This document shows, one piece after another, positions 28,327 through 64,000 of a stretch of DNA of 64,000 nt. The translations under genes and the position numbers were made by a program. This DNA comes from Macrolepiota albuminosa. Its lineage: Eukaryota > Basidiomycota > Agaricomycetes > Agaricales > Agaricaceae. Within the stretch, counting starts at the first letter, position 1; each line of letters begins with the position of its first letter. The stretch spans positions 6,308,947 to 6,372,946 of the forward strand of contig JAMWFC010000049.1 in the NCBI GenBank assembly GCA_027475525.1, given 5' to 3'. The notes beneath the pieces were generated by a model. It was not told the origin of the DNA. It did not search any database and saw only the letters and a program-made list of their open reading frames with translations.

Positions 28327-29052
28327 TGTCAGGTTCCGCTGAGTTGGGGGCTTTCCTGGAAAGCAATGCCCTTATGAGGCGGACTTGATCTACGGATACT
28401 CAGGTGTCTGGAACTCCGGGGCTAGGACTCTGGGGTTCAAGACGCGGACAGGGGTGATCCCGGGAGAGGGGACTTGATCTGGGTTTTGGGTTTCAGGTAG
28501 CTGAGGGTTGGGTGGGAATCAAGTCGTGAACCGGGGGTTCTAAGACGAGACCAGGTTAACAAATTATAAGTCACGAAGTGCATACCAAACTTGAGCACGC
28601 GATTATTCAGGTGTGCCAGTCAAAGCATGCCAGTCAGTGCATACTAGTCAAGCAAAGGGCATGCAACAATTCAAGTTAATATCAAGACTAGCGAATACAA
28701 CGGGGAACTATGCTATAAGTACTACGGGACCAGGTCTTGGAGTTCTGGAGTGTCTGGGATGGGTTCTGGGAGTCATTGAGTAGTGGGCTGGAACTGTATA
28801 CTTGGATCGCACGTGTGGGGCACGCAATCAATTGGCGTGGAGGGAGCTGTGATGTGTGATGCGTGATAGCCAGAAGCGAGTCACGTGATCCAATCATTGA
28901 TTGGGGCTGGTGGCGGCTGATGGCAGCCCTTGATGTGCGTGATGGCGGTGTTGGTAGTCGTGATGGCGGGGCGTGTCCTGTGGGGTCAGAGGGAGGGTGG
29001 ATGGTGTTCTGGGGGTGTCCTGGGGTGGGTCTGGAGGGGAGGGGTTGTGACA
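28327..29052 (-). mobile_element. LTR of gypsy-type element A1
   Basis: 726 bp bounded by TGTCA and TGACA. It is homologous to 62271-62991 and, inverted, to the solo LTR at 104-706. Immediately right of it (29053-29065) is a C-run. In the sense direction this reads as a G-rich polypurine tract directly before the LTR, so this is the 3' LTR of a minus-sense element. A TATA-like segment lies near 28715-28705 in sense. Confidence 0.85.
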
Positions 29053-29179
29053 TCACCCCCCCCTCAGCACTGAGACCCTCCGATGCGTGCGTAGCCGGTG
29101 GTTTGGACCGGGTCCAATTGTGGGATCCGGCGCCTGACTTGCCACATATTAAAAAAAAAATTTACCATCAAACTCAACT

Positions 29180-29313
29180 ATGTCGCGTACGCCAATGCAT
29201 TTCCCGATGCCCCCACATACTAACGAGGTCGCGCCCCTCATGGCCTGGGAAGCCCAGGACGCACGGTACCAAGCTCACCTCGACCGGGAGCGTGTGGTGG
29301 CGCTTGCCCAGCA
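29180..29313 (+). pseudogene. Element A1 antisense gene, first exon (cut by element B)
   Basis: ATG at 29180, 128 bp inside the LTR, opens MSRTPMHFPMPPHTNEV and APLMAWEAQDARY, then RERVVALAQQ. The homologous copy at 63120 has the same frame and then a donor GTGAGT. In A1 the exon is interrupted just before the donor by element B; the donor (GTGAGTGC) reappears at 40614, past the right LTR. The gene runs opposite to the LTR's sense strand. The remainder is at 40612-42144. Confidence 0.75.
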
Positions 29314-29317
29314 ATGT

Positions 29318-30254
29318 TGATGACGCCCAAAGTTTGGTCAGTAACAAATGTAACAATAGTGTTACCGTACCAAGAGTTTGCGTTGGGCATGCTATAAGTG
29401 ATGAGAGGAGTCCTGGGCAGGTCCCAGAGAACGCGTCTGTAAAAATAGGGTAAAGTCAGTAACGAGGTTGGCAAGTGTAAAGCGCTAAGGTAAAGCGCCT
29501 ATGGAAAAAGCGGTAAGTGAACACGGCAATGGTAAGCAGCAAGAGCACGATAAGCTTAGCGAAGTCTAAGCATCGATAATGCCTGCCGTAGTTGCAAGGC
29601 GCGAGTGTGTCAAGTGTTGGCGAGCGTCTGTAACTGCCAATGAGTTCGACGTTGCCGACCGTAAATGAGCTCTTGAGCGTAAGGAAGGCTGAAGTAAGGG
29701 GAGTAGTGAACTCTGGTCTATTGTTTTCTTATCTATGTACAAGTCGGTAAGTACTATATATACTACAAGGAGTTCACCATCGCCAGTGACCAACCATCGC
29801 CAAAGCGCAGTAAACTGGAAAATTTCATAGGGGTAGCTCCAATGGTTTCAGATCCCTACTGTCCTTTCAAGACCCTTGGCGCCACCAGGCAGCAGATTGC
29901 GGTGCTAAACCATCAATCCATCACCCTTCTGCCTGTCAGAACACCTAAGCGACGTTGGGCGCCAAATTGAGACGCTAAGCGGTGTCAGACACCAAGGTCA
30001 AACGCCAAGCTGTCCGTCAGTTTTTGATAGATCATCAGGCTTCTCCCTAAGCGCTGTCGTCAGTGACTGATGCCATCTGTCAGTTGTCATTCTTGCTGCC
30101 GTCGGCACTATCACTGATCGGATCTGCTTCTTGCCGTGCGCGGCCGTCAAATATCGCCAAACTTGGTTAATTAGCGTGCGCTAAGGTATTTTGAGCCTGT
30201 GCCGTGTTGCCGTAGCCTGCCGTTGATGCGCTGATCCTGTATAGGGTCCTATCA
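29318..30254 (-). repeat. 3' LTR of element B
   Basis: Pairs with 39675-40611, both 937 bp. In sense it starts TGATAGGACC and ends GCGTCATCA. The adjacent polypurine tract (sense GGGGAGAGA, 30255-30263) identifies it as the 3' LTR. Confidence 0.93.
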
Positions 30255-30274
30255 TCTCTCCCCAACTGAAAAAT

Positions 30275-30290
30275 TGACTGTCTTCAGTCA
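30275..30290. promoter_or_regulatory. Inverted repeat TGACTG-TCTT-CAGTCA between LTR B and its antisense gene
   Basis: A perfect 6-bp inverted repeat with a 4-nt spacer lies 20 bp inside the LTR and 135 bp upstream of the antisense gene's ATG. Element C has GACTG-TCCT-CAGTC at the equivalent place (44414-44427). It may be a regulatory or replication element; function unknown. Confidence 0.4.
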
Positions 30291-30424
30291 CCAAATATGG
30301 TTACCGTTATCGCTTTTGTGACAGGTGGTCCGTGCGTTCTTGAGATTTTGTTTATAGTCCTGGCGCGTGAGTTTGGACTTCGTTTCTTCTCCCCATCTTT
30401 TTCCTGGCGCTCAAAAAATAAAAT

Positions 30425-32840
30425 ATGTCCTTCCGTATTCCAACTCTGCCCCCCGTCCCATCTCGTGAGGCTCAAGATGCCGCCTTCGCCTACATTGACA
30501 AGGCCAACAACTTTATTAGGCGCATCGAGGGTGTGGGCGCGGAGGCGCCTCCAAACTTGGTCGTTGCCGTGATGAAGTTGTTAGAGCGCTGGTACGAAGT
30601 TCGCGTCCTTGGCATCGGCTGGGACAGAGAAATTGAAGTGCGGAAGTGGTGCCGGGCGTGGTACGTCGACAATCGTGGCACCGACTAGTTAGCGCCGTTT
30701 TCTCGTTTTGTAAGTGGTTTTAGTCCTTGCCATGTTGCTAGCTGATTGGTCCCTAGGCGCCTCCTCCCGTCCCGACCATTGAGGATGAATTGGAGGACAT
30801 CCTCTCTGGCACCTTGCCAATGACGGTAAGCGCGCCAGCGCCTGAGTGAGTATCTCTAACTGTGGATTTCTAACTTAGCTGTGGTCTGATCTGTCCCCTC
30901 ATAGTAAGCAAGAGGTATTGGCGCCTCTCGCCAATTTGCAGGTGGACGCCAAGATGGTGGCAATTCGCGAGAGCGTGCTAGAAGAGGCCTCCCATGACGC
31001 CAAGGAGAGAACCAAGGCATTGGAGGAGCGAGAGGTCGCTGGTGAGTCCCTGGTTGCCAGCGAGAAGTTGCCAGTTGCAAGGAGGCAGATGTCTGATGTG
31101 AAGGATTCCCGCGCCGGTAGTGCCCAGAGCCCAGCACTGCCGGCAAGCAAATCGGGCTCTCCAGTCAAGCCTGGCAAGACTTTGAAAAAGAAGGTAAGTT
31201 TGAGGGTTCTTACTGCTGGCGACTTCTGCTTATCCCACTCTCAGTCTTGTAAGGCTGCCGCCCCTTGTTACACGGTAAGTTCATTACGCCAAGGTACCTT
31301 CCCTGCTAACCAAATAGTTGGCAAGCGCCAACGCAAACTTCTTTTAGCGATGCCAAGCTGAAGGGTTTGCTGGTAGCATGACGAGATGAGGCGGTTTTGG
31401 ATGAGGGAATGGAAGCGGAAGTGGTCTTGCCAGAGATGAAGGATAAGAAGACGGCAAGCCTAGCGGCAAGACGGGAGTTCAAGGACTTCCAAGGAGCAGT
31501 AAGTACTATGGCCTTCCTTACCGCTCTTGTTAACATTCTTGCAGTGCGACAAGTGCTGGGCTGACAACGACCCAGAGGGGTGTTGGTACCCCACTGGTGG
31601 CCAGCCCTGCTACCGGTGCGGTACTCTGAAGAGGGCCTGCACTCTGGATGGCGCCAAGAGTCGAGAACGCGGTGGCGCCCCAGACGCGGTAGTGGAGCGC
31701 ACCTTCAAGCACGCCGTCCTTGTTAAGAGGGCTCGGGAGTTTGTTGAAGGAGAGAGGAAGAAGAAGGCCGCAGGAGATGCGGCAACCATCAGCAAGAGTT
31801 CCCTGGCGCTGCTGACGTGTCAAGGGGATGAAAACAAAATGGTCGGTAATTGTGGCGCCGGTGAGCGCCAAGGGACTGCGGTCCCCTTAAAACGACAAGT
31901 CCCTTCGCCTGCCAAGGGGAAGGGCAAGGCCAAACGTGCATGGGTAGAGTCTCCTCCCTCTACCCCTGAAGACGTGGAGATGGAGGAGCTGGAGAAGGCG
32001 CTTGCCGCCAGTCGCCTACCGGTCAGGGATTCGGAGGCTGGGCCAAGTAAGTTGCTTTCTCCCATCTACTTGAGGGGGGTATCTCTGCCGGCTGCCGATG
32101 AGGACGACATGGTTATGGCCCTCCCACCAACGGAAGAGCAGCAGGAGGGGGAACCATCTGCAGTGACAGCAAGGGGAGGGGAAAGCCCTGTGGCGATGGC
32201 AACGACTGCCGGTGACGAGGACGCAGATGGGGAAGACGACGTGGGTGAAGAAACCTTGGTGACACAGCGCCAAGGCGACGGGGAGGAGACATCAGCAAGG
32301 GAGGTAGTGGCAGGAGTTGAGGAAGCGGCAGGAGCTGCCTGGGAGGAGCCTGAGTGGCAGTGGCTACCGCCATATGGTAACGTTGCCCCCTGGGAGGTGT
32401 CAGACCCCGAGGACGTTGCCGGGCTGGAACCAAGGTGCCCCGTAATTGCCAGGATCAATCCTGCTTGGACGCCTCAACCGCAACCGACAGTTACTGGCGA
32501 CGCCTTCCAGTGGCTGGGGCAAGACCTCGTCTACCCAGTCATGGCGCTAAACCCTCGCGACATGTTGGAGCAATATTCGAGGAGGGCGGCAACGATGGCG
32601 ACGTCCATGGAACGGGAACGGGAACGGGAACAGGTGCAGGGCCAGCTCATGGCGCTTCGCTTGCGGTATTCCAACTTGGGCCCCAGCCTGCACGTTCTGC
32701 GAGATTACCAAGATGATTGCCAAGCCGCTATGGATTGGCAAACCGCAAATAACATCTTGCCGGGTGACTTGCTTCCCCTTCGCAAATCCTCCCTGCCAGT
32801 CTCTGACGAGTCTTTGCTGATGGAGGACAATAGCAAGTAA
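30425..32840 (+). pseudogene. Element B antisense gene: Zn2Cys6-like protein
   Basis: Plus-strand gene, opposite to gag-pol. Exons about 30425-30709, 30757-30845, 30905-31193, 31245-31274, 31348-31498 and 31544-32840 have GT...AG introns of 43-73 nt. It starts MSFRIPTLPPVPSREAQDA. The fourth and later exons bring a cysteine cluster, CDKCWADNDPEGC then CYRCGTLKRAC (CX2CX8CX8CX2CX6C), close to the fungal Zn(II)2Cys6 pattern. The first Cys codon is the first codon of the last exon. After it come a basic RKKKA stretch, long acidic low-complexity regions and a helical tail (REREREREQVQGQLMALR). Internal TAG (30686) and TGA (about 31380) codons break the frame, plausibly CAG-to-TAG and CGA-to-TGA. 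Exact joins around 31275-31348 are uncertain. A role as DNA-binding regulator is inferred only. Confidence 0.7.
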
Positions 32841-33265: not shown

Positions 33266-36200
33266 CTAATCGTTTTCTTCTTCTTCCACTAAAGTCGGCA
33301 AGTCATCATCGTCCAATAATTCGGTTTCTTCAAGTTCTCTCAGCTTGGCAGTGTCAATATCTAGCGCTTCAAGCAGCAAATTGATTTGTTCTCTAGCGAG
33401 GTATGGCACTAGGTGAAAGGCGGCAACAGGTCGATGTAGTACTGAACCATCTAATTCACAGAGCACGTAAGCGCCTCCACGGTTACGAGAGATAACTACC
33501 AAAGGTCCAAGATAGCGTGGGCGCATTTTCTTATTGTATGATGTTTCAATTTTTGAGTTGCGCATAAGCACTAGCGCTCCTCTCGGGAAGTTGTAATCTT
33601 TGATGGTAGCGCTATGCTCGGTTTCGAATCGTAGGGCTGCTTGGCGACGGGCGCTAAAGACTACCTTGTGGAGTCGCTCTAAATCTTCTTTCCTTCGTTG
33701 GAGGTCAATGGCTCGTCTGGCGATAAGATCGGTAGTCGCTAAGATACTGTTGGGTGCTGGCTGAAGGTAGGTCGCTTCTATGATGTCGGCAGGGAGTAAA
33801 GGATGGGTGCCAGTAGCCGCGTAATAGGGAGAGCAACCCATGTGCTTACGAATGGTAACCCTCTCTAACCAGAACACTGAATATGTCGCTTTGCTCCAAC
33901 GAGATTTGTCGCCATCGACTGCTTTGAAAAGCACTTGCCGAACGTCAAAGTGTGGTCTCTCTACCAAGCCATTGGTGTGTTTGTTGTAGCCAGATACTCA
34001 AATGTGATGGATATTGTATTTCTTGGCGAGATATGTTAGCGCTTTGACAATGGGCGCACCGTTATCCGTGACAATTTCTCTTAGCGCTCCCCAATGGCAG
34101 ATGACGTCTTCAAATAGCCACTTGGCGACCGCGTCTGTATTTTCTCTTTGAGCATTTGAAATTCAGGCCAGTGGATTAGCGAGCAACGACCTTGGATGAT
34201 GTACTTGTAGCGACCAGATTTGGGCATGTGCATGGTATCGACGTAGATTTTGCTGAAGAGGGGAGCTGGCATTGCAACGGTTGGCAATATGAGCACTTGG
34301 CGTGTCTGTTGAATTTGGCAGAGGTGGCAAGTCCTAATGTACCAGGCGATGTTGGCACTAGCGTGTGGCCACCAGAAGCGTTCTAACAGAGAAGCTCGAG
34401 TAGCGTACAGACCTCTATGTCCTAGCTTGTCATGCATGGCACGCAGGACTCATAAGCGACTTTCTGGCTTGATGATCAGCTTGTGAGCGCCATCTCGATT
34501 TTGTCACCAAAGTCGGTTGTCGGTAAAGAAGAAACGGGTAGCGTATTGGATAAAGGTCGTGAACTGTTCATCGGTAAGGCCTACTGGTCGCTTGAGGTCT
34601 TGTATCCATTGTTCAACTATTAACAAGCGGCTGTCTTCTGCCTTTGCTTTGGCAGATCGGGGAACGGCATCGTAGGTCAAGTTTCTGCTGTCTTCTCTTA
34701 GCGGATGGGGCTCTTGTACGACTTTTATGGGAGGCGAATTTTGACTGAAAATGCTTGCCGTAGAATGTGAGGGGTGCGCTAAAGGTCTCGGGGCGGTAAG
34801 GGACAATGGGATGTAGAAGGATACTGGCAGGTTGTTGCCGTCGTAGTAGGGGGATTGGCTGTTGTATGAGGTGTACGAAACCATGTAACCGGTCGATCCA
34901 GTCCTCAAAATCGCTATCCACCTGGAGATCCACTGCCGGGTTGCCAGGCTGCCGTGGTCGCCTAGAGAGTCCGTCGGGTCCATGGAAAGAGCTCTTGACG
35001 TGTACCAACTCAAAATGAAACATGAGGATAGCGACTACCCATCGATTCATGCTAGCGGATGGCTGGATATCGGGATTCTGCAGCATGCCTTTGATGTACC
35101 TAGCGTCGACTTCAACAATCAGGTTCCGCACGCCAATCAAATACATCTTTAGCAACCGGAAGGCTTTGAAGAGTCCATAGAGCTCTAGCTTAGGCTGACT
35201 GTAGTGAGACTCTCGGTCGTTTAGCGTAATAGACTCAAAGCAGTTGTAGCGTCGCTGTTTCCGATTGTCGCTAAGGCACTGGCACAAAAAGTAGCCAACG
35301 GCAATGTACGAGGTATCCACCGCCAAGATGACAGGGTCGGCAGAGCTATAGTTGATTGGAACTAGGGGTTTGGCATCTTGTAGGGCTTTTACTAAGTCGC
35401 GTTGGGCAGTGACCTGGTCTGGCCCAAATTTGAAGGGCTCGTTGGCGTGGGTGAGTCGGTTAAGGGCATGTGCGCGATGGGCAAAGTTTTTGACGAATAT
35501 TCTAAGAACGCCAACGGTACCAAGAAAGGCGCGAACTTCCAATAAGTCGCAGCAAGGGCCCCAGCACTCAAGGAGTGCTAAGCGAGATTCGTCGGGAATG
35601 CGACCGTCGGGAGTGCAGATGTGACCAAGTATTTTGAACCTTGGCGCGCAAAGAAGGAGCTTATGGCCGCTAAAGGTACCACCGCTATACTTCATACGTT
35701 GGAGAACTCAATTGAGCAGCAGGAAAAACTCCCATAGCGCTAAGCGAATGTTGGGGTTCTCAGGATGGGTCGCCAGTAAGCCGTTTACGAGTTGCCAGTC
35801 TTTGGGGCCTTTGACGCCAACGTTGTCAATGAAGCTAAGGACATTATGCGGTATCTCGGGTTGGAGGATGAAAGTGATGTCATCATGGAATATGGGGACT
35901 GAGTTTGTCCAGCCCATCGGTAAGGTGACTAGGTGCAAGGCGCCAAACGGAGTTTGAAAAGTAGTGAGATCCCGGGAAGAGGGGTGTATCAGGCGTTCAT
36001 CGTAGCCAACGTACAGGTCAAGGGTGGTGCCACAAATGCGCCCAGCAAAGGACTCGGCAATGTGATCAGGGAAAGGTGGTACGCCAGAGTGTCGTATGGT
36101 GACTCTATTCAGCGGTTCGAGACTGTGGACTATGCGTAGGTTGCCGTTCTTTTTGAGGACACAGAACCAGTGGAAGTGGTAAGAACTATTGGAGGGTTTG

Positions 36201-37012
36201 TAGACGCCAGCCTTAATCTTAGTCCTAATGATTTGGCAGACCTCGGCTTTGATCACAGGCAGTAACGGTCAGTTGTGCTCAGTCCACGGCACGTGAGGAA
36301 TGGTCAGGATTATGACAGGCGGAAAGAAGTCAGTACGCAGGCTGCCGTGTTCGGAGTCCTCCCAAGCGAAGGCTTTATCTTGCTTAGTGACGAGATCGGT
36401 AAGGACTTTCAACTCATCTGGGGTCAAAAATCCGGTGTCGTGCTCCTTGGCGAACTGCTGCTGGCATTCCGTGGTAAAACGTCCTGTGGGCTGAAAGGGT
36501 GGCGGATTCGGTGATAGAGTTGGCATGTCGGCAAGAGGGTTGCCAATGATCTGGCGCTCGATTCTAAACGTCTCGGGAGAGTGCGTAGCGACGGGTTTTG
36601 TTTTAAGCGCAACTGGCTTATATTTCGTTTTGACTTGAACCCCTTTCCTTTTGGGAGTGTTAGCTTTGTTATATGCAGAGGTGGAAAGGGGAATCGTAGC
36701 CTGTGAAGCAGCAAGTCCAAGAACGGCAGGAGACGAGGCTCTGGGAAGAGTAGTGAGATAAGTTTCGGTAGATGCTATATTTTGAAAGGATTTGGAAGCG
36801 GTAAGGTACAAGTAGGCAAGAGAGGAGTCGGTAATGTTTTGATTTTTCTGGGAAGGCTCTGCGTCGGTAGTGGGTAAAGTAGTTAAAACGTCTTCGTCAA
36901 GAAAAGCAGTAGACATAACATTTACAAGACCAGTTGAATGGTCATATTCCAGCGTTAGCGCCACATCTCCGTGATCGTCGCCAATCACCTCCTCGATGGT
37001 CTGTGAAAACAC
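33266..37012 (-). pseudogene. pol: Element B pol (RT, RNase H, integrase), multiply interrupted
   Basis: Sense order: a linker with ESFRIERQIIGNPLADM-like residues; RT with KAGVYKPSNSSYHFHWF, VHSLEPLNRVTIRHSGVPPF, LPMGWTNSVPIFHDD and the catalytic box SFIDNV, where family YIDD has lost its second Asp (35845 region). RNase H has ILAVDTSYIAVG and VEVDARYIKGML. The integrase HHCC zinc region is MHDKLGHRGLYATRASLLER to TCHLCQIQQ, with core DTMHM, IVTDNGAP and NGLVERPHFDVRQ. In-frame stops at 36269, 35708, 34504, 34450 and 33998 are all TGA, and frameshifts lie near 34750 and 34140. Similar throughout to element C's intact pol. The switch from protease to this frame is -1 in direction, without an obvious slippery heptamer. 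Confidence 0.9.
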
Positions 37013-37770
37013 CGGTGTGGAGGCTCGTTGGCGTGTTGGTCGGTAAACTCCGGGGGCTTAGCGCGGGCGCCTTTTCGTTGTCCCCTAGGGAACGTTGGCA
37101 CCGTTCGTCGGATTCCGGAATTGGGGTCGCTAATGGTTAAAGTCGTCTCGTCGTCGGTAACTGTCTTGACGACTGATCGCGCCAAGACGTCGAAGGGTCT
37201 GCCAAGTAGCAGGTCATATGCTGGGGAGCGTAAAATGTGTATTTGAAGATAAAACGTGATGTTGCCAAGGGTGCACGGCACATTCTTGGCGAGGCCTAGG
37301 GATCAGTCTACTGTGCCGTTAGTGCTCTGCATGTTTAGTATCACTGTAGGGTCATAAATTAGGCCCAGATTGTTAGCGACTTTGGCTGCCATAGAAATGA
37401 TTTGAGACCCGCTATCCACGATTGCCTCTACCTCGTGCTTATTGTCTACTGTTAGCGCTACTGAGCGGATAGCGTGCGATTCTTGAGCGACGGTAAGGAT
37501 TGCAGGGTCTTCTCCATGGTCCACTGACCTAAGGTAGGTCTCCACTGGGTCCACAGAGGTGGCGTTAGCGATGGGGTCGGCAGGAGAGTCTTCAGCGTCC
37601 AGCGAATCGACGGTAACAGAAAAACCAGGGAGCGCGTCGTCAAGATCCTCGACCTCAGCAACGGTCATCACCAAGGGTCGTCGAGGAGTGACTGCCGTCT
37701 TGACTTGGTTGCGGACGTCTGGAGCAATACTGCAAAGCTCTTCAACTGATAAGGTAACGGCAGTTTTCAT
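36985..37770 (-). pseudogene. Element B protease domain
   Basis: Aspartic protease with active site AIVDSGSQIISMA (about 37420) and YDLLLGRPFDVLA (about 37210). It is in the same frame as gag upstream, separated only by TGA codons at 38143 and 37825, and interrupted by TGA at 37303 between TNGTVD and SLGLAKNVP. Element C has the equivalent NESLGMAKNVPFKF. The ancestral product was therefore probably a gag-protease fusion. Confidence 0.85.
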
Positions 37771-38142
37771 GATGCGGTTAAAGACGTGGTTTGATTTCTC
37801 TATATCGAAAATTGGCGCGGTAGGTCAGTAGCCACCCTCAGGACGTTTCTCGGGAGCAGCAAAGTTTTGTTGTGCTGGTGTGTGATAACGGTCGGGAATC
37901 CCTGAGTAGGGATGGAGAGGCGGCAAAGGCGGTTCGGGAGCGGTAGCGGACGACGATGGTTCTGGAGTAGTAGCAGGGGTAGTGGCAGGCGGTGTGGCAG
38001 GAGCAGGAGTTGGTAGCTTGCTAGCGGGAGGCATTGGCTTGTATCCTTTAAGAGGTTGTTTAGGCTGCTTAACTTCAACCCCATCAAAGACCTGATTCTT
38101 GAGCGAATCTAATTCCTGCTGTAGCTTGGCGATACGTTCTTC

Positions 38143-39432
38143 TCACAAGAATGTAGGGTGGTCGCCAACGCTGTCGAAGTGTAAGACCTCGTGAACCATT
38201 TGCTGTTGGGTCGCCTGTTCAGGGTCAGGGTTGGCGTTGCCAGAAAGCGTGCCAGTAGCGATTTGTCCTGGGTTGCGCCTATGCCATTCATCCACCCGCT
38301 CCTGGAAGGACTTCTTGTCTGGGTAGTTGGGAATGATGGCACCAGTGGTGAGAACTATCTTGCCGTCGATAGCCCGTCGAATCCTTCCTTGCCAAATGTA
38401 GTTTTCTAAAGTTACGCAGCGTCCTCTAGTCATAGTATGGCCAATCTCCCCACAGAAGTGGCAAGGGCCATTAGCGGGTACATTAGCAGGTTGGTTAGCG
38501 AGATTGGTGGTAATCATAGTTTTGATATGCGTCATAGTGGAAGTGACAGCGGCGGTAATGGCAGCATTAAGGTCCTCCTTCTTAACGAAGTCGGCAACAG
38601 GAGGCGGGATGGGAATGATACTGTTAGTTTGCTCAGGTGGTGGGCTCATCCTAGCGCGTTGTAGCCCAACGCCAGTGTCCGTCCCCTTGAGAACCCATTT
38701 ACCGGCTTCAAAGATGTCGGCAATGTTATAGGGCTCGTCTGGGTGGTGGGCTTGATGAACAATTTCTAGGCAACGAGCAATACAAGTCCAAAGCGAAGTC
38801 GGGATGCCTTGTTGGAATAGACGACGTTCCTCGTTAATGTATAACTTGCCGTTCTGTACTAACCACCTAGCAATTTTCTGGAATTCACGGTAATATGTGG
38901 AGAATGCGCCAAGAGACGATGTGCCGCTGTCGAATGATTCCTGTACTAGTTTCTGCAACTCGTTTACCGTGTATTGGATAGCCTCCTCTGCGCCAGGGTA
39001 CAGCTGGATCACTGCCATCTTCCAGTCCTCATACAAAGCGCCTTGGGCTGGGACGGGTGGGGCGGCAGGAACAAAGGCAGCAAACTCGGTCAAACCTGTC
39101 CATGTCTCTGCCGTGTCATACGATACGTATCTTGCCGCATACTCCTTCATCTGTGTGTGGTCGGTAATGTTACAATCTCTGAATAAATACTCCAACTCCT
39201 TGAAATACTGGGAGAGCTCCCGTGGCTTGGACTCGTCCCATTTTGGTGCCGAGAAGTGGTTACGTGGCGGCATGCGCTGAACTTGTTGTTCCATAGCGAC
39301 TGTGTTGGCGAGTTTGGTTAGCGGTAGTGGGGAAGGAGTTCTAGAGATTGGCGACGGGGTAAGAGAAATGAGTTGTGAAAGAGGCGTTAGCGGAGTAATT
39401 GGGGTGATTGGTTGCGGTACGGTAAAGGGCAA
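38143..39432 (-). CDS. gag: Element B gag
   Basis: 429-residue frame. The N-terminus is proline/threonine-rich, and the capsid-like region begins RNHFSAPKWDESKPRELSQY, with FKELEYLFRDC and TAETWTGLTEF. A CX2CX4HX6C zinc knuckle (CHFCGEIGHTMTRGRC, residues about 323-338) is longer than the usual CX4C spacing. The frame ends at a TGA after HPTFL that is best read as a mutated CGA, because coding continues in frame (EERIAKLQQEL) towards the protease. Gag forms the particle that packages element RNA. Confidence 0.85.
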   Translation of the reverse strand: MPFTVPQPITPITPLTPLSQLISLTPSPISRTPSPLPLTKLANTVAMEQQVQRMPPRNHFSAPKWDESKPRELSQYFKELEYLFRDCNITDHTQMKEYAARYVSYDTAETWTGLTEFAAFVPAAPPVPAQGALYEDWKMAVIQLYPGAEEAIQYTVNELQKLVQESFDSGTSSLGAFSTYYREFQKIARWLVQNGKLYINEERRLFQQGIPTSLWTCIARCLEIVHQAHHPDEPYNIADIFEAGKWVLKGTDTGVGLQRARMSPPPEQTNSIIPIPPPVADFVKKEDLNAAITAAVTSTMTHIKTMITTNLANQPANVPANGPCHFCGEIGHTMTRGRCVTLENYIWQGRIRRAIDGKIVLTTGAIIPNYPDKKSFQERVDEWHRRNPGQIATGTLSGNANPDPEQATQQQMVHEVLHFDSVGDHPTFL

Positions 39433-39653: not shown

Positions 39654-39671
39654 CCCTCGCGGTGGGCTCCA
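39654..39671 (-). other. Primer binding site of element B
   Basis: In sense TGGAGCCCACCGCGAGGG follows the 5' LTR after a 3-nt spacer. It begins with TGG and is therefore complementary to a tRNA 3' end (...GGTGGGCTCCA). The same 18 bases occur in element C. The tRNA is not identified. Confidence 0.8.
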
Positions 39672-39674: not shown

Positions 39675-40611
39675 TGATGATGCCCAAAGTTTGGTCAGTA
39701 ACAAATGTAACAATAGTGTTACCGTACCAAGAGTTTGCGTTGGGCGCGCTATAAGTGATGAGAGGAGTCCCAGGCAGGTCCCAGAGAATGCGTCTGTAAA
39801 AATATGGTAAAGTTGGTAACGAGGTTGGCAAGTGTAAAGCGCTAAGGTAAAGCGCCTATGGAAAAAGCGGTAAGTGAACACGGCAACGGTAAGCGGCAAG
39901 AGCACGATAAGCTTAGCGAAGTCTAAGCATCGATAATGCCTGCCGTAGTTGCAAGGCGCGAGTGTGTCGAGTGTTGGCGAGCGTCTGTAACTGCCAATGA
40001 GTTCGACGTTGCCGACCGTAAATGAGCTCCTGAGCGTAAGGGAGGCTGAAGTAAGGGGAGTAGTGAACTCTGGTTTATTGTTCTCTTATCTATGTACAAG
40101 TTGGTAAGTACTATATATACTACAAGGAGTTCACTGTCACCAGTGACCAACCATTGCCAAAGTGCGGTAAACTGGAAAATTTCATAGGGGTAGCTCCAAT
40201 GGTTTCAGATCCCTACCGTCCTTTCAAGACCCTTGGCGCCACCAGGCAGCAGATTGCGGTGCTAAACCATCAATCCATCACCCTTCTGCCTGTCAGAACA
40301 CCTAAGCAACGTTGGGCGCCAAATCGAGACGCTAAGCGGTGTCAGACACCAAGGTCAAACGCCAAGCTGTCCGTCAGTTTTTGATAGATCATCAGGCTTC
40401 TCCCTAAGCGCTGTCGTCAGTGACTGATGCCATCTGTCAGTTGTCATTCTTGCTGCCATCGGCACTATCACTGATCGGATCTGCTTCTTGCCGTGCGCGG
40501 CCGTCAAATATTGCCAAACTTGGTTAATTAGCGCACGCTAAGGTATTTTGAGCCTGTGCCGTGTTGCCGTAGCCTGCCGTTGATGCGCTGATCCTGTATG
40601 GGGTCCTATCA
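39675..40611 (-). repeat. 5' LTR of element B
   Basis: Partner of 29318-30254. It adjoins the PBS, which marks it as the 5' LTR in sense. About 35 mismatches to the partner were noticed by eye, mostly C/T or G/A. Confidence 0.93.
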
Positions 40612-42144
40612 ATGTGAGTGCTTCCCACGTTGTCTGCTTATCTCAACTGAACTTCCTTTTCCAGAACAACTCAATAATCCTGTCCCGGAAGCGGGTCCCA
40701 GCCGGCTCCTGATGCAGGTCCTGGGGGTCCTTCGGGGTCAGGCCCCAGCCATCCTGCGCCCATCTTTGCACGGATGACCATGTGTCCCCCCCGTCCCCCA
40801 GACTGGTCGCCCCTTGTTTCTGCCGTTCTGGGATGGTGGTGGGAGCCATTTCCAAGGTCCTGGAGATTCATCACGTTGCGTGGGCGAGCGCAATGCAAGA
40901 GGCCTTTGAGAGGGCGTTGGTGAGGCCCCGGGGCTTGCCTCCCCATGCTTGGTGTGTTAGCAATGGGCTGGTAAGTAGTTTTGTACCTCTGGTCCCGCAG
41001 CTAACCTGGATGCCTAGTGCCTTCACTGCGTGCGTCGCTTGGTAACGTGTTCATTCGAGGCTCTGTCCGCCTTGTTCCAGCGTGATACTTCCGTGTGCGA
41101 GGCCTGTCGCTTCAATCACAAGCAATGCTCCGTTTCAGCCCTTTGGAGGGCATACTGCATTTCGTGGGAGCAGGGTTGGCCGTTAGGGGGCATCACCTGG
41201 AGAATGGAGGTGGAGGAGAGGGATTGGGTTGCAGGGGTGGTTGAGGTCCAGGAGGAGGTGCTGGGGGAGGCCCCTGGAGGCAGGGCGGAAGGACGGGGGA
41301 TTGTCCAGGTGGGCAGCTGAGGCTGGCCCGTGGTCTTGATCATGTGCTGGGTGACCCGGTCTGGTGCCCCAGGGTGCCCCGATAAGGGGAAATGGCGGGC
41401 GTTGCCTAGCTCCTCCCCAGGGCCCTCCAAGAGGGCACATTTGCCCTCTGGGACCCCGCCCCCGATTTCCCCTCATGTCTCTCCCCAGCGGTGTTCTTGC
41501 CTCTGTCGGGGCGGCCCCTGGGGGCGGACGTGAAGGCCTTTCAGGAGCGTCTGGGGGAGTTCAAGGAGGGTAGGGGGGAGGCTGATGTGCAGAGGGAGTT
41601 GGAGGTGGGTCGGGAGGCGCTTCGGCAGTTGGAGAAGGCCCGAGTTGCTCAGGGGGAGGTGGAGGCGGAGCTGCAGGCGTTGCGGGCAAGGCTGGGGCAG
41701 GGAGTGGGGATCCCAGAGGGGGTCCCCTTGGGACAGGAGTTGACGGAGGGGCTGCACCACAATGTGGTGATTGCGCGCATGGCATCTTTGAGTGAGTCCC
41801 CTGTCACTTGCTCACCTCTTTTGCTAACGTCTCCAGGCTGGGCCCGGGAGCACCATCTGCTCCTAGATGGGGCTGCCGCAGCACTTGCTGTGCTGCAGGA
41901 GGGGCAGCACTCGGAGGTGACGACCCCCAGGGTGGAGCGTGGTCTTGACCTCCTGGGGTGACTGGTGGTCGCACATTGGCGGAGGAACGTGCCTGCCCTG
42001 GGATCCTGGTTTGAGCGCGTGTTGGACAAGGGTGAGCCCCTGGCCAAGGAAGTGTGGCAGGAGCATGGTCCAGAGGGAGTGGGGGAGGATTTCCGGGGTT
42101 GGCCAAGGGAAGGGGAGGGCGAGGGGAGTCACAGTTTGGGGCCC
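40612..42144 (+). pseudogene. Element A1 antisense gene, remaining exons
   Basis: Continuation of the exon at 29180. After intron 40614-40664 an exon 40665-40970 aligns with the copy at 63307-63641, but small indels put it out of frame until RSGMVVGAISKVLE and AWCVSNGL. Intron 40971-41017 is followed by an exon whose first codon is the first Cys of CLHC; it continues through VCEACRFNHKQCS. The third cysteine of the 63.7-kb copy aligns with a Gln here. Downstream is a coiled-coil stretch (QRELEVGREALRQLEKARVA, EVEAELQALRARLG, 41578-41695), a 45-nt intron near 41790-41835 and a last segment to about 41961. Sequence to 42144 may be untranslated. Confidence 0.6.
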
Positions 42145-42572
42145 CAGCGTTAGAGGCGGTGTCTTGCTGTTTTCTTTTTTTCTTTTTTGTTTGTTATGTT
42201 TCTTGTCCCGGCCTGGTACTGTAGATAGTGTAGTCATAAGAAAAAATGTATATACTTGGTCTTTTGGAGCCAGGGGAGTAAGTAAGTAATATCAGAAACA
42301 TGTCGAGGAGTTAGGGGGAAGCAGGGAATATACGTGGGAGTTAAAGTAAGTAACATTGGAAATGTGTCGAAGGGTTAGAGAGGGGAAACAGAAGGTATAC
42401 ATGGGAGTTGAATCCCTATTAAGCCCAGAGGCAGGGGTTACGCCCACTACTGCCGTCTGTGGGTCCTATGCCCAGAAGGGTTGTTTCCCAGGTGCTGTTG
42501 CTGGAAGTCTCGGAGTTTGTCGAGGGCGCCTTCATTTGGCCGTCTCTGATCAAAAGACAAATTAACCTTCAA
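42145..42572. repeat. Remnant of element A1 with two imperfect 68-bp tandem units
   Basis: AGTAAGTAATATC...CGTGGGAGTTA (about 42271-42338) is repeated imperfectly at about 42339-42407 (AGTAAGTAACATT...CATGGGAGTT). No pol sequence of A1 follows, and F-box-gene sequence begins by 42573, so A1 is truncated in this region. Confidence 0.55.
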
Positions 42573-44393: not shown

Positions 44394-44413
44394 TCTCCCC
44401 CCCACCAAATAAA

Positions 44414-51534: not shown

Positions 51535-51543
51535 TATTTTGCT

Positions 51544-51697
51544 AACAATCTCATCCTCCCTTCTCTGCCAAACTCTGGGCTGGTACAGCTCTTTCTTGTC
51601 ATTTTGAAATTTTACTATTTTACAATCTCATCCTCCCTTCTCTGCCAAACTCTGGGCTGGTACAGCTCTTTCTTGTCATTTTGAAATTTTACTATTT
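51544..51697. repeat. 77-bp perfect-looking tandem duplication in element C
   Basis: Segment 51544-51620 is repeated at 51621-51697 (for example CTCATCCTCCCTTCTCTGCC at 51550 and 51627). 77 is not a multiple of three. Removing one unit joins the 51836 frame to the protease frame without a stop. Confidence 0.92.
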
Positions 51698-51847: not shown

Positions 51848-53281
51848 CTAAAAACCCTCCTGCTTCTGCTGGGTGTTCTTCTCATAAGTCTGAGTCCTAG
51901 TGGTTATCAGACTGGACACCAAGTTCTGCAGCTCCTCTATCTTCTTCTCTAAATCCTCTTTCTCCTTGGGCACTGCCTGTACATAGGTAGACACACTAGG
52001 CACCATAGTGACTGGCTCTTCTACCCAGCCATAGAAGGCAGCAGCCTTAGGATCCATGATAGCATTGACCCTCTCTTTGGGAGACACATTAGGTGGACTC
52101 CTGGGAATGGGATCCCCAGAAGGTAGCCTAGGCCTGCCTTCAAAGAGGATGAGCTTGCCTTCTTGGACTTGAGTCTTGAGATATTCACAGTCATTGGTCC
52201 TGTGTCCCAACTCCCAACAATGATAACAGTTTATTCCTGCTGCTGAACTGTTGCCTCCTTGAAACTGAACAGTCTGCAAGGCCTGAGTAGGCATCCCCAT
52301 CCTAGTCTGCAGACCTCCCTGCATAGGAACCTGGCTCTTTGCCTTCCACTCATTGTTCATAGTCTGCATGAAACCTCTCAGACTGCTCATCTCCTTCCCC
52401 AGAGCCATGACTCCATCCTGGAGGTTAGCTAACCTCCCCTCAGTCTCCAAATCTGGCTCTTGCTTGACCTTGATCACCCCTGGGACCTTCTCCTGTGGAC
52501 TGTCATTGTCCCTGAATGAGGTTCCAGAATCAACCAAAATAGCCACCACATTGATGATTTCCTTCAGATCATATCTATCATCCTTGTGTCTCCTCCTGGT
52601 TATGTCACTATAATGACCATATTTTTGCAAGGCCTGGGCCAGAATAAGTTCCCTGAAGGCTGGGGTGAAGCACTTAGTGAACTTCTCAACCAGTGCCCCA
52701 TTCCCAAGCACCCCTTTCAACTTCTTGGCTTCAGCCCTAAACTTCCTGACCAGTGCATGGATCTCTTCTGTGTCATTCTGTCCCAACCTTGCATGCTCTC
52801 TACAGATCCTGTCAAGTACTGCCACACTCCCCTCATCAGAGATTGCCTCTGGGTAGGAATCTTGGACCTCCTTGACAAAGACCTCCCAACTTGACTCATC
52901 ACTAAAACTGTCCAATCCCCTCCACTCACTGTCTGTCTCTGCATCCACATACTCTGTCACCCTCTCCTTTCTCTCCCCAGCATCATTAATCCCTGCAGCC
53001 TTGAAGAGACTCTCCATCTTTCTGAGGAAGCGCCTGACTTCAGTGGGCTGTGTGTGGGTGAACCTAGGTGCATCTCTGCTTGTAGACAGAGGCAATTTTT
53101 GTCTTGTAACTTCTGGCATTTTTGATAGATTTGTACTTGTAATTTTGATAGTTTTGGATGTTGGCTTTCTTGATCTCAAGACTTGTTCTGGGTCCCCAAC
53201 ACTATTGAGTGTGGTGGTCTTGCTGCTCCTGGTAGTGGGCTTGTGTGCTTGCTCCCTAGGACTGACCTTTTGCTTGGGCAC
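51848..53281 (-). CDS. gag: Element C gag
   Basis: 477 residues. A basic N-terminus (MPKQKVSPREQAHKPTTRSS) is followed by a capsid-like region with RFTHTQPTEVRRFLRKMESLF and DSEWRGLDSFSDESSWEVFV, FRAEAKKLKGVLGN, and a CX2CX4HX4C knuckle (CYHCWELGHRTNDC, residues about 350-364). The C-terminus is a coiled coil (KEKEDLEKKIEELQNLVSSL). The stop is embedded in GAG GGT TTT TAG, part of a slippery site. It forms the particle and binds element RNA. No internal damage. Confidence 0.92.
   Translation of the reverse strand: MPKQKVSPREQAHKPTTRSSKTTTLNSVGDPEQVLRSRKPTSKTIKITSTNLSKMPEVTRQKLPLSTSRDAPRFTHTQPTEVRRFLRKMESLFKAAGINDAGERKERVTEYVDAETDSEWRGLDSFSDESSWEVFVKEVQDSYPEAISDEGSVAVLDRICREHARLGQNDTEEIHALVRKFRAEAKKLKGVLGNGALVEKFTKCFTPAFRELILAQALQKYGHYSDITRRRHKDDRYDLKEIINVVAILVDSGTSFRDNDSPQEKVPGVIKVKQEPDLETEGRLANLQDGVMALGKEMSSLRGFMQTMNNEWKAKSQVPMQGGLQTRMGMPTQALQTVQFQGGNSSAAGINCYHCWELGHRTNDCEYLKTQVQEGKLILFEGRPRLPSGDPIPRSPPNVSPKERVNAIMDPKAAAFYGWVEEPVTMVPSVSTYVQAVPKEKEDLEKKIEELQNLVSSLITTRTQTYEKNTQQKQEGF
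51851..51857 (-). promoter_or_regulatory. -1 ribosomal slippery heptamer GGGTTTT (gag-pro)
   Basis: Sense 0-frame codons GAG GGT TTT TAG contain G GGT TTT, which fits X XXY YYZ, immediately before the gag stop. A -1 shift continues TTA GAG AAC TCA into the connector/protease frame. Confidence 0.75.
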
Positions 53282-53420: not shown

Positions 53421-53438
53421 CCCTCGCGGTGGGCTCCA
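53421..53438 (-). other. Primer binding site of element C
   Basis: In sense TGGAGCCCACCGCGAGGG lies 2 nt after the 5' LTR. It is identical to the PBS of element B. Confidence 0.82.
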
Positions 53439-53440
53439 GA

Positions 53441-54288
53441 TGTAGTACTTGGTTGCAAGTAGTACTGATAGTTCTGGGGCTTGATGGTGTAGAAGGTTAC
53501 TTGCAGTGCACACTGACTTGATGATGAAATTGATATATTTGAAGGCTTTCAATAATCTTCCTGAAAGCAGAGGGTTCTCAACAAACTCCAGCCTAAGTGA
53601 TTCACTCCCTGGGAACCACCGAGCCTTTGCCTATCAATTGCCTGTCTATTCTCTACTAAACTTGGGCTATTTATACTGTTTTTCTGGTGCACAGACCACT
53701 ATCTACACATGACTCTTTTGTTGTCAACTCCCCAGCCTCCAGAACATATTTGATAGTCCAATTTCCCTTTTGGGAGGCATGTTTCGGTGCCACCAGTTCC
53801 ACCATTCAACTTCTTGTTCCATCATTCCTCTGGATGTCTCTGATTGCCACTTCCCCATTTGCTTCAGCTCCATTTAGCACGATCCCATTCATAGATCCTT
53901 CTTTCCCCTTTTAGCGCTTCCCTGCATTCCATGCTTCTTTTGACATCCCTCCATGCTTCTTTTCCTTTCCCCTTTCAGTCATGACAAATTGGGCATTGTC
54001 AGATCTGATCTTGATCTAGATCATCACAAATTGATCCCATTTCGTCACTTCTGCCAGCTCCCATGCTTCCCCTCCCCATTACAGTGGTTGGACTATTGTT
54101 GTGTTGATAGCTTGAGCTGGTCCCTGCCCTTTGTTCTGTACTGTCTGTGTATTTATTGGGGTGTTTTTGGAGATATAATTTGTTGAGACTGCTACCAGGA
54201 GGCTTACAGTTTTCAGCCTTATGATTAAATGTTTATTTTGACTTCTGGTGCATGTTGTGTCCCTGACTGCTGGTACAGCGTCGTATCA
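53441..54288 (-). repeat. 5' LTR of element C
   Basis: Identical by eye to 43546-44393; adjoins the PBS, so it is the 5' LTR in sense. Confidence 0.95.
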
Positions 54289-57905: not shown

Positions 57906-57926
57906 GATGAAAAATTTAGAAAATAT

Positions 57927-62020: not shown

Positions 62021-62125
62021 AGTGGAACCTGGTTTTGATTCCAGGTGTGTAGCCCAGCAGGCACGAGAGCCTCGCCTAGGGCACCGGCTTCAGTGCCATC
62101 ACAAACGCTACTCCAAAAAAAAAAA
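62021..62125 (+). repeat. Structured 3' tail of the LINE
   Basis: ACCTGG (62027-62032) pairs with CCAGGT (62041-62046) around an 8-nt loop; GGCAC (62080-62084) pairs with GTGCC (62093-62097) around another 8-nt loop; AGGC and GCCT form a short stem between them (about 62060-62072). The poly-A follows at 62115. Such tails are recognised by LINE reverse transcriptases in some families. Confidence 0.45.
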
Positions 62126-62270
62126 CTGATGATCAGTGGTTTTTCATGATCCTGAGCATAGTCACCATCCACCAGCATTTTAGCTATGGACGGCTAGACG
62201 TCCCTCGTTTTTCGCAAGGGTGACATGTTTAATCTTGAGGATGCAGGTTCATGGCTCCTTTGGCCTTTTC

Positions 62271-62991
62271 TGTCAGGTTCTGCTGAGTCAGAGGCTTTCC
62301 GGGAAAGCAACGCCCTTACAATGCAGACTTGATCTACGGATACTCGGGTGTCTGGAACTCCAGAGCTAGGACTCCGGGGTTCAAGACGTGGACAGGGGTA
62401 ACCCCGGGAGAGGGAACTTGGTCTGGGGGTTTTGAGTTTCGGGTAGCTGAAGGTAGGGTGGGGGTCGAGTTGTGAACTAGGGGTTCTAAGACGAGACCGG
62501 GTCAACAAATTAAAAGTTGCGAAGTGCGTACCAAACTTAGAGCACGTGGTTATTCAAGCGTGCCAGTCAAAGTGTGCCAGTCAGTGCATACCAGTCAAGC
62601 AGAGGGCACGCAACAATTCAAGTAATCCAAGTTAATGTAATATCAAGACTAGCGAATACAACGGGGAACTACGCTATAAATACTACGGGACCGGGTCTCG
62701 GGGTTCCGTGTCTGGGATGGGTTCCAGGAGTCATTGAGTAGCGGGCAGGGACTGTATACTTGGATTGCGTGTGTGGGGCATGCGATCAATTGGTGCAGAG
62801 GGAGCTGTGATGCGTGATGCGTGATGGCCAGAAGCGAGTCGCGTGATCCAATTGTTGATCGGGGCTGGTGGCGGCTGATGGCGGTGTCGGTAGTCGTGAT
62901 GGCGGGGCGTGTCCTGTGGGGTCAGAAGGAGGGTTCCGGATGGTGTTCCGGAGGTGTCCTGGGGTGGATCCAGAGGGGAGAGGTCATGACA
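62271..62991 (-). mobile_element. LTR of gypsy-type element A2
   Basis: 721 bp from TGTCA to TGACA, homologous to 28327-29052. It is followed on the right by TCACCTCCCCCTC, the complement of a polypurine tract, so this is the 3' LTR of a minus-sense element that continues beyond the window. In sense a TATTTATAG box lies near 62680. Confidence 0.88.
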
Positions 62992-63001
62992 TCACCTCCC
63001 C

Positions 63002-63013
63002 CTCAGCGCTGAG
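63002..63013. promoter_or_regulatory. Palindrome CTCAGCGCTGAG beside LTR A2
   Basis: Perfect 12-bp palindrome 10 bp inside the LTR. Element A1 has CTCAGCACTGAG (29063-29074) at the same place. Analogous in position to the inverted repeats of elements B and C. Confidence 0.4.
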
Positions 63014-63119
63014 ACCCTCCAAGGTGCACGTAGCTGGTGGTTTGGACCGGGGTCCAATCGTGGGATCCAGCACCTGACTTGCCACATATTGAAAAAAAAT
63101 TTTACCATCAAACTCAACC

Positions 63120-64000
63120 ATGTTGCGTATGCCGACGCATTTCCCGATGCCCCTGCAAACTAACAAGGTCGCGCCCCTCATGGCCTGGGAAGCCCGGGAT
63201 GCATGGTACCGAGCCCGCCTGGACTGGAAGCACGTGGTGGCACTTGCGCAACAACGTGAGTGCTTCCGGTGCCGCTCGCTTGTCGTTACTGACCTTCCTT
63301 TTTCAGAACAACACAATATTACTGCCCCGAAGGCAGGTCCCAGCCGGCTCCCGGAGCCTGTTCCTGATGCAGGTCCCAGTGCTCCTCCGGAGTCCTGTTT
63401 GAGTCGTTCTGCGCCCACCTTTGCGCGGATGACTGTTCGCCCTCCCCATCCGCACCCCCCTCCCTGCCCTAGGCTGCCTGCCCCCCGCTTCCGTCATTCC
63501 GGGATGGTGATAGGGACCATCTTAGAGGTCCCAGAAGATCAACGCATTGCGTGGGTGGCCGTGACACAGGAGTTGTTTGGGGAGGCCCTGGAGAGGCTCT
63601 GGGGTCTACCTGCCCATGCCTGGTGCGTGAGCAACGGACCGGTGAGTGGTCTCCTACCTCTGGTCTTCCTTGCTGACTTTGGTGTAGTGCTTGCACTGCG
63701 CCCAACGAGTGGTCTCAGGCCCCTTGTCCTGTCGGGATATGTCCGTCTGCGAGGCCTGCCATCTCAACCATGAGCGGTGCTCCGTGTCAGCACTGTGGGT
63801 CAGGGGGCCGGGGTGCCATTTGGATGGGGGGCTGGGGCTGGCCCGTGGTCCTGATCACACGTCGGGCGACCCAGGCCAGGACCGGTGGTCACGAGGGTTG
63901 TGGGGGGCGCTCCGACAAGGGGAAGAGGCGGGCATCGCCTAGCCCCTCCAAGAGGGCATGTTTGCCCTCTGGGACTCCGCCCCTGGTTTCCCCCCCACGC
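63120..64000 (+). CDS. Element A2 antisense gene: Zn2Cys6-like protein, runs off the window
   Basis: ATG at 63120, 129 bp inside the LTR, opposite to the element's sense strand. Exon 1 63120-63255 (MLRMPTHFPMPLQTNKV, APLMAWEARDAWY), intron 63256-63306, exon 2 63307-63641 (proline-rich, then GMVIGTILEVPEDQRIAWV and AHAWCVSNGP), intron 63642-63687, exon 3 from 63688. Exon 3 begins with the first Cys codon of CLHCAQRVVSGPLSC, RDMSVCEACHLNHERC: CX2CX10CX5CX2CX6C. The last half, CX2CX6C, matches Zn(II)2Cys6 proteins. No frame damage is visible to about 63942. Compare the A1 copy at 29180/40612 and the element B gene. Likely nucleic-acid binding by inference from the cluster. Confidence 0.7.

Follow-up and report, generated by a model that had tools for sequence, protein, structure and literature searches.

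Intron-containing genes antisense to gag-pol in Ty3/gypsy-type elements of the fungus Macrolepiota albuminosa

Do the LTR retroelements of a basidiomycete carry intron-containing genes on the strand opposite gag-pol, and what might such genes do? The question is raised by a 64,000-nt stretch of the Macrolepiota albuminosa genome (assembly GCA_027475525.1, contig JAMWFC010000049.1, positions 6,308,947-6,372,946 of the forward strand), here called the window; all copy counts and comparisons were made within this one fungal genome. As a first-pass annotation of the sequence had proposed, an intron-containing gene antisense to gag-pol is present in each of the elements B, C and A (Table 1). The sequence analysis makes it almost certain that these are real spliced antisense genes, where splicing of the antisense transcript is inferred from the conserved introns.

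Table 1. Features of the A, B and C elements, in window coordinates.
Feature	Position	Strand	Remarks
A element, 3' LTR	28327..29052	-	
A polypurine tract	29053-29064		
Gene A, exon 1	29180..29315	+	separated from remainder by element B
B target duplication ATGT	29314-29317 / 40612-40615		4 bp
B element, 3' LTR	29318..30254	-	96.6% to 39675-40611; element sits inside gene A
B polypurine tract	30255-30263		
Conserved palindromic motif GACTGTCTTCAGTC	30276..30289	+	beside B polypurine tract
Antisense gene B	30425..32840	+	6 exons
Gene B, exons 1-3	30425-30709, 30757-30845, 30905-31193	+	
Gene B, exons 4-6	31245-31274, 31325-31498, 31545-32840	+	
Six-cysteine cluster CX2CX8CX8CX2CX6C in gene B	31545..31640	+	
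B gag-like ORF and broken pol pieces	33266..39432	-	integrase end, RNase H, RT, protease
B primer-binding site TGGAGCCCACCGCGAGG	39655..39671	-	beside right-hand LTR, read from sequence
B element, 5' LTR	39675..40611	-	
Gene A, exons 2-4	40665..42153	+	decayed; 40665-40970, 41018-41791, 41837-42153
C element, 3' LTR	43546..44393	-	848 bp, 100% identical to 53441-54288
C polypurine tract GGTGGGGGGGAGA	44394..44406	-	identical across 19 aligned copies
Conserved palindromic motif GACTGTCCTCAGTC	44414..44427	+	at C
Antisense gene C	44607..45876	+	6 exons, 321 aa, intact
Gene C, exons 1-3	44607-44813, 44873-45094, 45149-45262	+	
Gene C, exons 4-6	45342-45396, 45452-45732, 45790-45876	+	
C pol	47024..50800	-	RNase H, integrase H2C2
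C protease ORF	50755..51627	-	
C gag-like ORF	51848..53281	-	zinc knuckle match only below cut-off
C primer-binding site TGGAGCCCACCGCGAGG	53422..53438	-	beside right-hand LTR, read from sequence
C element, 5' LTR	53441..54288	-	pairs with 43546-44393
Second A element, 3' LTR	62271..62991	-	
Second gene A	63120..64000	+	exon 1 63120-63255; leaves window

The B and C elements have the LTRs, primer-binding site, polypurine tract and pol order (protease-RT-RNase H-integrase) of Ty3/gypsy elements, and both run on the minus strand, as first annotated. Protease, RNase H and integrase zinc-binding domains lie on that strand in C, together with the primer-binding site, and a 4-bp target duplication (gtat, read from the sequence) flanks the element. 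Pfam gave no RT match in C pol at E values up to 1, and comparison of C pol and a conserved RT pattern with viral contigs found no relative. In B, the primer-binding site is accompanied by an RNase H above the Pfam cut-off, a protease below it, an RT piece with a sub-threshold score (15 bits, cut-off 29.6) and an integrase end recognised solely through its similarity to C pol. The orientation of A, for which the earlier reading had the polypurine tract alone, is now supported by a minus-strand chromovirus pol adjoining a related gene A copy (L054/L059); the L059 pol comprises RT, RNase H, integrase and chromodomain.

Genes B and C each consist of several exons and exist in many copies; they occupy the interval from pol to the 3' LTR, on the strand opposite gag-pol. 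Re-measurement from LTR edge to ATG reproduced the distances first given: 128 bp in A (29052 to 29180), 129 bp in the second A (62991 to 63120), 171 bp in B (30254 to 30425) and 214 bp in C (44393 to 44607). The genes had been described as starting inside the 3' LTR, which holds in the sense of inward of its inner edge; the ATGs are not within the LTR itself and lie beyond the polypurine tract, in the internal part of the element. The introns had also been called intact, and for the window this is true of C, whose gene is intact between identical LTRs with no intron lost. The window's gene B is broken by two in-frame stops and has lost one splice acceptor, and gene A is decayed, its first copy (at 29180) split by insertion of element B at the end of the first exon. 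Gene A has three introns, compared with five each in B and C.

Aligned copies of genes B and C bear clear sequence signs of purifying selection on the protein. Across 19 C and 9 B copies, 94/95 and 44/45 introns, respectively, keep GT/GC..AG ends. Most indels in exons have lengths divisible by three (12/14 in C, 28/32 in B), compared with 18/125 and 0/11 of those in introns. Median dN/dS is 0.157 in C (169/171 pairs) and 0.122 in B (36/36 pairs), the pairs not being independent because the copies are related, while four other reading frames give 0.92-2.42. The fifth, the codon-phase mirror frame, gives 0.27 in C and 0.22 in B, yet contains a median of 10 and 12 stops per copy; an overlapping sense gene as the cause of the low dN/dS was rejected since this frame is closed by stops. 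The spliced frame is intact in 16/19 C and 8/9 B copies. Retention of introns 1-5 would break it in 16, 16, 16, 11 and 5 of the 16 intact C copies, and in 8, 8, 1, 8 and 8 of the 8 intact B copies.

These intron, indel, dN/dS and frame tests refute chance ORFs with splice-like sites as an account of B and C, for which nothing speaks in its favour; decay leaves it partial room in A, where 22/27 introns in nine copies examined have GT..AG ends and 0/9 frames are intact, all copies being decayed. Overall, its probability is practically negligible. The same data bear on the idea that the antisense RNA is itself the active product, affecting copy number through dsRNA, siRNA or interference, with coding secondary. 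Roles for antisense RNA are discussed for plant elements in parts of PMC7264820, but low dN/dS (0.12-0.16), indels that preserve the frame and unbroken spliced reading frames show selection on the protein, and we regard this idea as improbable.

The persistence of introns fits the explanation first offered, namely their position on the strand opposite the genomic RNA: with reverse transcription confined to the sense RNA, they would escape removal. No intron loss was found in the 19 C and 9 B aligned copies.

Five families (A, B, C, D and E) in two pol groups, chromovirus and B/C/D/E, carry such genes. For region B, 40 places were scored out of 584 candidates, the window's own among them, and region C was found at 30 loci, some of which are pieces of one element. 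Among the 38 C-like pol places listed, gene C lies antisense within 3.5 kb downstream in at least 24 and within 15 kb in at least 26, so that most family copies have the gene between pol and the 3' LTR. Lineages D and E have homologous genes at the same position in the element, with the first intron position matching within one residue, and kinship of the antisense genes parallels that of pol, C going with D and B with E. No homology was detected between the B/E and C/D genes. The ORF set searched also yielded none to gene A; a single gene B match within an A locus remained sub-threshold (E 0.06). A profile HMM built from exon 1 of B/E picked up no C, D, A or additional E exons at E values under 1.

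Such unrelatedness would be expected of captured host genes carried as passengers, and the multi-exon structure does resemble an ordinary fungal gene. The agreement of gene and pol relationships, the many copies, purifying selection and the same place by the same motif all count against this explanation, to which we assign only a small probability; recent capture is already unlikely.

Some C elements with an open pol have lost the antisense gene by deletion, indicating that gene C is dispensable in cis. The first-pass annotation had reasoned that copies lacking the gene would point to chance capture; gene-less C copies do exist, yet each of the four identified arose by deletion. The start codon survives in L061 and L063, L064 has the same remnant, and all three share one junction; the junction of L060 differs. 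We count these copies with open pol as a point for action in trans, although the gene could simply be superfluous.

The antisense proteins have basic KR-rich stretches, as judged by eye, and no domain above cut-off in Pfam scans of proteins or pieces (E up to 1 and up to 10); neither TRP28 (PF04195) nor bZIP was matched in these scans. A PDB sequence search with protein B found no relative. The fungal Zn(2)-Cys(6) cluster (PF00172) has six cysteines in two CX2CX6C-like halves. In B and E the spacing is X2, X8, X8, X2, X6, and the six cysteines are invariant in 7 aligned sequences of the 11 seen (window plus 10 loci), without a PF00172 match. A looser cluster (X2, X6, X15, X2, X6) occurs in 4/8 gene A loci, a piece of which scores 13.5 bits against PF00172, below the cut-off of 21. 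A shared biochemical role of the proteins is consequently only putative, with a cluster seen in B/E and A and none in C and D.

The upstream region contains a conserved cis motif and promoter-like boxes. The 14-bp palindrome adjacent to the polypurine tract, with the inverted repeat GACTG-N4-CAGTC, has 724 sites in the genome (control: 0), and an antisense-gene first exon follows 18/20 sampled sites. Upstream of gene C, TTTAAA is present in 19/19 copies; B-type samples have TTATAG (12/12, positions -70 to -73) and E-type samples TATAAA (3/3, positions -56 to -58), the counts for these two types referring to samples with a recognised start.

The sequence comparisons establish genes B and C as multi-exon, with conserved introns and purifying selection, a fixed place, pol-matched homologues and loss in derivatives. 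We give about an even chance to the reading that they are inherited accessory genes, antisense between pol and the 3' LTR, that act as trans-acting nuclear regulators with their own promoter; the regulatory role itself we place slightly below even. The antisense RNA would begin close to the TATA-like box, located some 50-73 bp ahead of the start codon; this would place its origin in the leader that separates polypurine tract and ATG, outside the LTR itself. After splicing, the RNA would yield a nuclear protein, as the KR-rich stretches and the Zn2Cys6-like cluster (B and E; looser in A) suggest. This protein may work in trans across the element family; its likeliest task would be to regulate sense LTR transcription, much as HTLV HBZ/APH proteins do, perhaps via the inverted repeat next to the polypurine tract.

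Alternatively, this repeat might just as well form an RNA hairpin that assists the polypurine tract. The sense RNA may fold a short hairpin just upstream of the tract (-7.5 kcal/mol in B and -5.5 in C for 38-base stretches, raw values), and the 25 bp that adjoin the inner edge of the LTR are the most conserved of the 25-bp bins checked (100% identity among copies in C, 99% in B). Together with the cysteine cluster, this would suit a role in replication, in which the protein binds hairpin or inverted repeat as nucleic-acid chaperone, in nuclear import of cDNA or in Rev-like export of unspliced sense RNA. Polypurine tracts are, however, constrained in any case, gene-less C copies retain the motif, and separate antisense transcription would seem an odd supply route for a particle protein. 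We consider a replication role rather less likely than regulation.

Precedents for antisense genes exist in plant elements, in Boty of Botrytis and in HTLV, and the present case is a variant on that theme. In plant Ty3/gypsy elements, aORF-3R includes the TRP28-domain gene of the Retand lineage, Grande gene23 and RIRE2, and the Grande gene has its own promoter and a nuclear protein, according to parts of PMC7264820 and PMC11963269; the word 'intron' is absent from the main text of both. The fungal genes differ in lacking TRP28 and any other Pfam domain that reaches the cut-off, in their five (B, C) or three (A) introns, and in belonging to a fungal-type host and other pol lineages. The first-pass annotation knew of no description in basidiomycetes, and our literature search, with subscription papers mostly outside it, found no spliced antisense genes of basidiomycete LTR elements in titles or abstract openings. 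A fungal case is nonetheless on record: the antisense gene brtn of Boty-like elements in the ascomycete Botrytis cinerea (Zhao et al. 2011, Virology 417:248, as cited in PMC7264820, PMC8365987, PMC4227169 and PMC5987419), alike, by description, in being an extra antisense gene of a fungal LTR element.

HTLV-1 HBZ and HTLV-2/3/4 APH are spliced antisense genes expressed from the 3' end, whose mostly nuclear proteins act on the virus's own LTR transcription, as described in parts of PMC10186651. HTLV antisense transcription begins within the 3' LTR, whereas in the fungal elements both the ATG and the TATA-like box are on the inner side of the LTR, and the fungal proteins, known here from sequence alone, have no bZIP or other Pfam domain seen. 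More speculatively, and with a probability well below that of the accessory-gene reading, the fungal genes may be independently evolved HBZ counterparts across a large Ty3/gypsy lineage: intron-rich antisense genes for a DNA-binding regulator of the inverted repeat at its 724 sites, such that one family's protein could govern others and gene-less derivatives could spread as satellites using or evading the regulator.

Little work has been devoted to the antisense accessory genes of LTR elements, and PMC7264820 describes their function as unknown. With several introns, clear purifying selection in B and C, five families, a conserved cis motif and natural gene-less copies, the role of antisense genes in retrotransposons becomes testable here. 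The genes also exemplify how a retroelement can retain spliceable introns, and call for caution in annotation, where they may be called multi-exon host genes.

The antisense genes of families B and C evolve as spliced protein-coding genes. Gene C was aligned from the window and 18 loci (L010-L013, L015-L028) of 30 returned; the incomplete loci L014 and L029-L038 were excluded, and L009 is the window itself. The gene B alignment comprises the window and 8 places out of the best 40 scored. GT/GC..AG borders are kept in 94 of 95 intron instances in C and 44 of 45 in B, where the single exception lies in the copy within the window. Indels in exons come in multiples of three in 12/14 (C) and 28/32 (B) cases and intron indels in 18/125 and 0/11, all scored against the window copy so that shared events are counted repeatedly. 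Spliced frames are intact in 16/19 C copies, including the window's, and in 8/9 B copies, the window's gene B having two internal stops. Pairwise dN/dS by the Nei-Gojobori method has a median of 0.157 in gene C (169 of 171 pairs, dS >0.03) and 0.122 in gene B (36/36 pairs), the pairs being non-independent because the copies are related. The five other frames give 1.30, 1.83, 0.92, 2.42 and 0.27 over gene C and 1.78, 1.92, 1.44, 2.24 and 0.22 over gene B. The low fifth value belongs to the sense-strand frame whose third codon positions coincide with those of the antisense gene. This frame holds a median of 10 (C) or 12 (B) stops per copy, so that a sense gene does not account for the constraint.

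The genome searched comprises 100 Mb in 129 contigs, one of which (C114) contains the window at 6308947-6372946. An older A element hosts B, its sequence being interrupted by B and flanking the insertion with a 4-bp target duplication. The orientation of A, previously inferred, is now borne out by locus L059, where an ORF encoding RT, RNase H, integrase, SH3 and chromodomain on the minus strand adjoins a related gene A copy, making A a minus-strand chromovirus. The ATG distances of the plus-strand genes, measured inward of the 3' LTR edge and given by the first-pass annotation, 128/129 bp (A), 171 bp (B) and 214 bp (C), also hold. Its explanation for intron persistence fits the alignments: no aligned B or C copy has lost an intron, the window's C with its identical LTRs included, as expected if sense RNA, in which the introns are reversed, is the only template.

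Repetitive elements and motif sites in the window
Feature	Position	Strand	Remarks
A LTR fragment	104-707	minus	
A element hosting B	28327-29317, 40612-42153		continues from 40612
A2 (second A copy)	62271-64000		starts 62271
B LTRs	29318-30254, 39675-40611		96.6% identical; PBS same as C's
B coding		minus	gag-like ORF, broken pol
C LTRs	43546-44393, 53441-54288	minus	100% identical; PBS adjoins right LTR, polypurine tract left LTR
C coding		minus	gag-like ORF, protease, pol
14-bp motif	30276-30289, 44414-44427		
Inverted related blocks, internal repeats	8994-10261, 19113-20190	minus, plus	C2H2 zinc-finger matches slightly below cut-off in one block
Ty1/copia-like element, decayed	12447-17406	minus	Pol_BBD, rve, gag_pre-integrs above cut-off; RVT_2 below
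Non-LTR element, LINE-like by eye	56840-62110	plus	endonuclease-like ORF, Exo_endo_phos below threshold; many stops; adjoins an A LTR

Gene A is decayed. Among the window copy and 8 loci, taken from the best 40 scored candidates and omitting A2, which runs off the window, no frame is intact (0/9) and 22 of 27 introns are GT..AG. Variable columns are purely transitions in 766/956 cases, 46% of these in CpG context, compared with 531/848 (35% CpG) in B and 974/1712 (29% CpG) in C. This is the pattern expected from deamination or RIP-like decay and suggests methylation-driven or RIP-like mutation of family A, all tabulated stretches included.

The antisense proteins and the pieces scanned match no Pfam domain at cut-off, and a PDB sequence search found no relative of the gene B protein. 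B and its homologue in lineage E share six invariant cysteines arranged as two halves, a cluster resembling, though not identical to, that of fungal Zn2Cys6 proteins. Gene A has a looser cysteine version with a Zn_clus match below threshold. By eye, all three gene types contain basic stretches resembling nuclear localisation signals.

Related elements elsewhere in the genome carry homologous antisense genes. A search with the integrase end of C pol, in which the best 99 of 3310 candidates were scored, listed 100 matches. The matches listed include at least 38 C-like places at ≥90% identity (one extra row, a second piece of one place, was dropped), lineage D at ~70% and lineage E at ~47%. Intersecting these 38 places with 48 rows chosen among the gene C matches listed, approximately one per gene copy, puts gene C downstream of pol and antisense to it in at least 24/38 within 3.5 kb and at least 26/38 within 15 kb. 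D (2 copies, L055-L056) encodes a collinear homologue of gene C and E (L057-L058, plus L065) one of gene B. In small custom ORF sets, the C profile matches D by piece at E = 4e-6, 0.001, 0.008 and 0.1, and the B profile matches E at 4e-15, 1e-10, 4e-34 and 1e-19; the same kind of comparison detected no homology between the B/E and C/D genes. First intron positions agree to within one residue for B and E and for C and D, and B and C pol share 109/180 (RT), 131/283 (RNase H piece) and 98/223 (integrase end) residues. Collinearity, intron position and pol kinship together indicate that the genes appear, on sequence comparison, to have been inherited along with their elements.

Two further observations concern these lineages. 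In E, two more plus-strand exon-like ORFs (L057, reverse complement, 2579-2917 and 3375-3653) sit between the B-type gene and pol and are possibly additional antisense genes; they do not match the B/E exon-1 profile. Four C copies (L019, L020, L026, L028) are 91-94% identical to the window's C at the pol end (47012-47600) but only 75-80% across the antisense-gene stretch (43546-46852), so that the gene side either evolves faster or was swapped between elements by recombination.

Elements of B, C, D and E have in common GACTGTCYTCAGTC, two inverted arms separated by a 4-bp spacer, which lies just inward of the 3' LTR and adjoins the polypurine tract. Identity among copies over the first 25 bp inward of the LTR edge is 100% (C) and 99% (B), exceeding neighbouring bins. 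The window contains two sites where 0.05 are expected with one mismatch allowed, and the genome 724 versus 0 for the reversed pattern, a count that owes much to copies of the same families. When every fifth of the first 100 listed sites was sampled (n=20), in 18 the next 0.5 kb held the first exon of a B-, E- or C-type gene, decayed at some sites. Of the other two, one (L077) is the place of L064, a gene-less C copy. The second (L085) has motif and polypurine tract yet no exon of the B, C, D or E types after them, and represents either a different type of element or a copy that has decayed. L070 likewise falls on a C place already covered. In A this spot holds a different inverted repeat, CTCAGCGCTGAG, which is perfect in 2/10 copies. 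A TATA-like box precedes the ATG at a fixed distance: TTTAAA in 19/19 C copies and, among the 15 sampled sites at which a pattern identified the start, TTATAG 70-73 bp upstream in 12/12 B-type and TATAAA 56-58 bp upstream in 3/3 E-type sites. This suggests a putative antisense promoter in the leader and not in the LTR.

Some C elements have lost the gene. Twelve of the C-like pol places listed lack a gene match, and five were examined (L060-L064). L061, L063 and L064 share one deletion, which brings the pol end up against the gene C start, L060 lost the gene through a different deletion, and L062 shows no LTR within the 4 kb examined. The pol open frame spans 1265 (L061), 636 (L063), 531 (L064) and 1257 aa (L060) compared with 1258 aa in the window's C; two or more of the gene-less copies therefore retain a pol of that length. 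Recurrence of the junction at three places points to multiplication of this form. Copies without the gene had been proposed as a sign of chance capture; such C copies do exist, but as deletion derivatives they imply that the gene was ancestral there, secondarily lost and dispensable in cis. Dispensability in cis would fit a putative trans-acting product without proving one.

Antisense genes are on record for plant Ty3/gypsy elements (PMC7264820, PMC11963269) and, as brtn, for the Boty element of the ascomycete Botrytis cinerea (PMC7264820). Spliced antisense genes are present in HTLV-1 to -4, where their products are described as reducing LTR transcription (PMC10186651). As far as our literature search shows, what is new is that several lineages of fungal elements within one genome conserve an antisense gene with multiple introns, together with a motif common to them next to the polypurine tract and naturally occurring derivatives that lack the gene. 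The 14-bp motif marks the B/C/D/E group and provides a usable handle for counting and orienting its elements.
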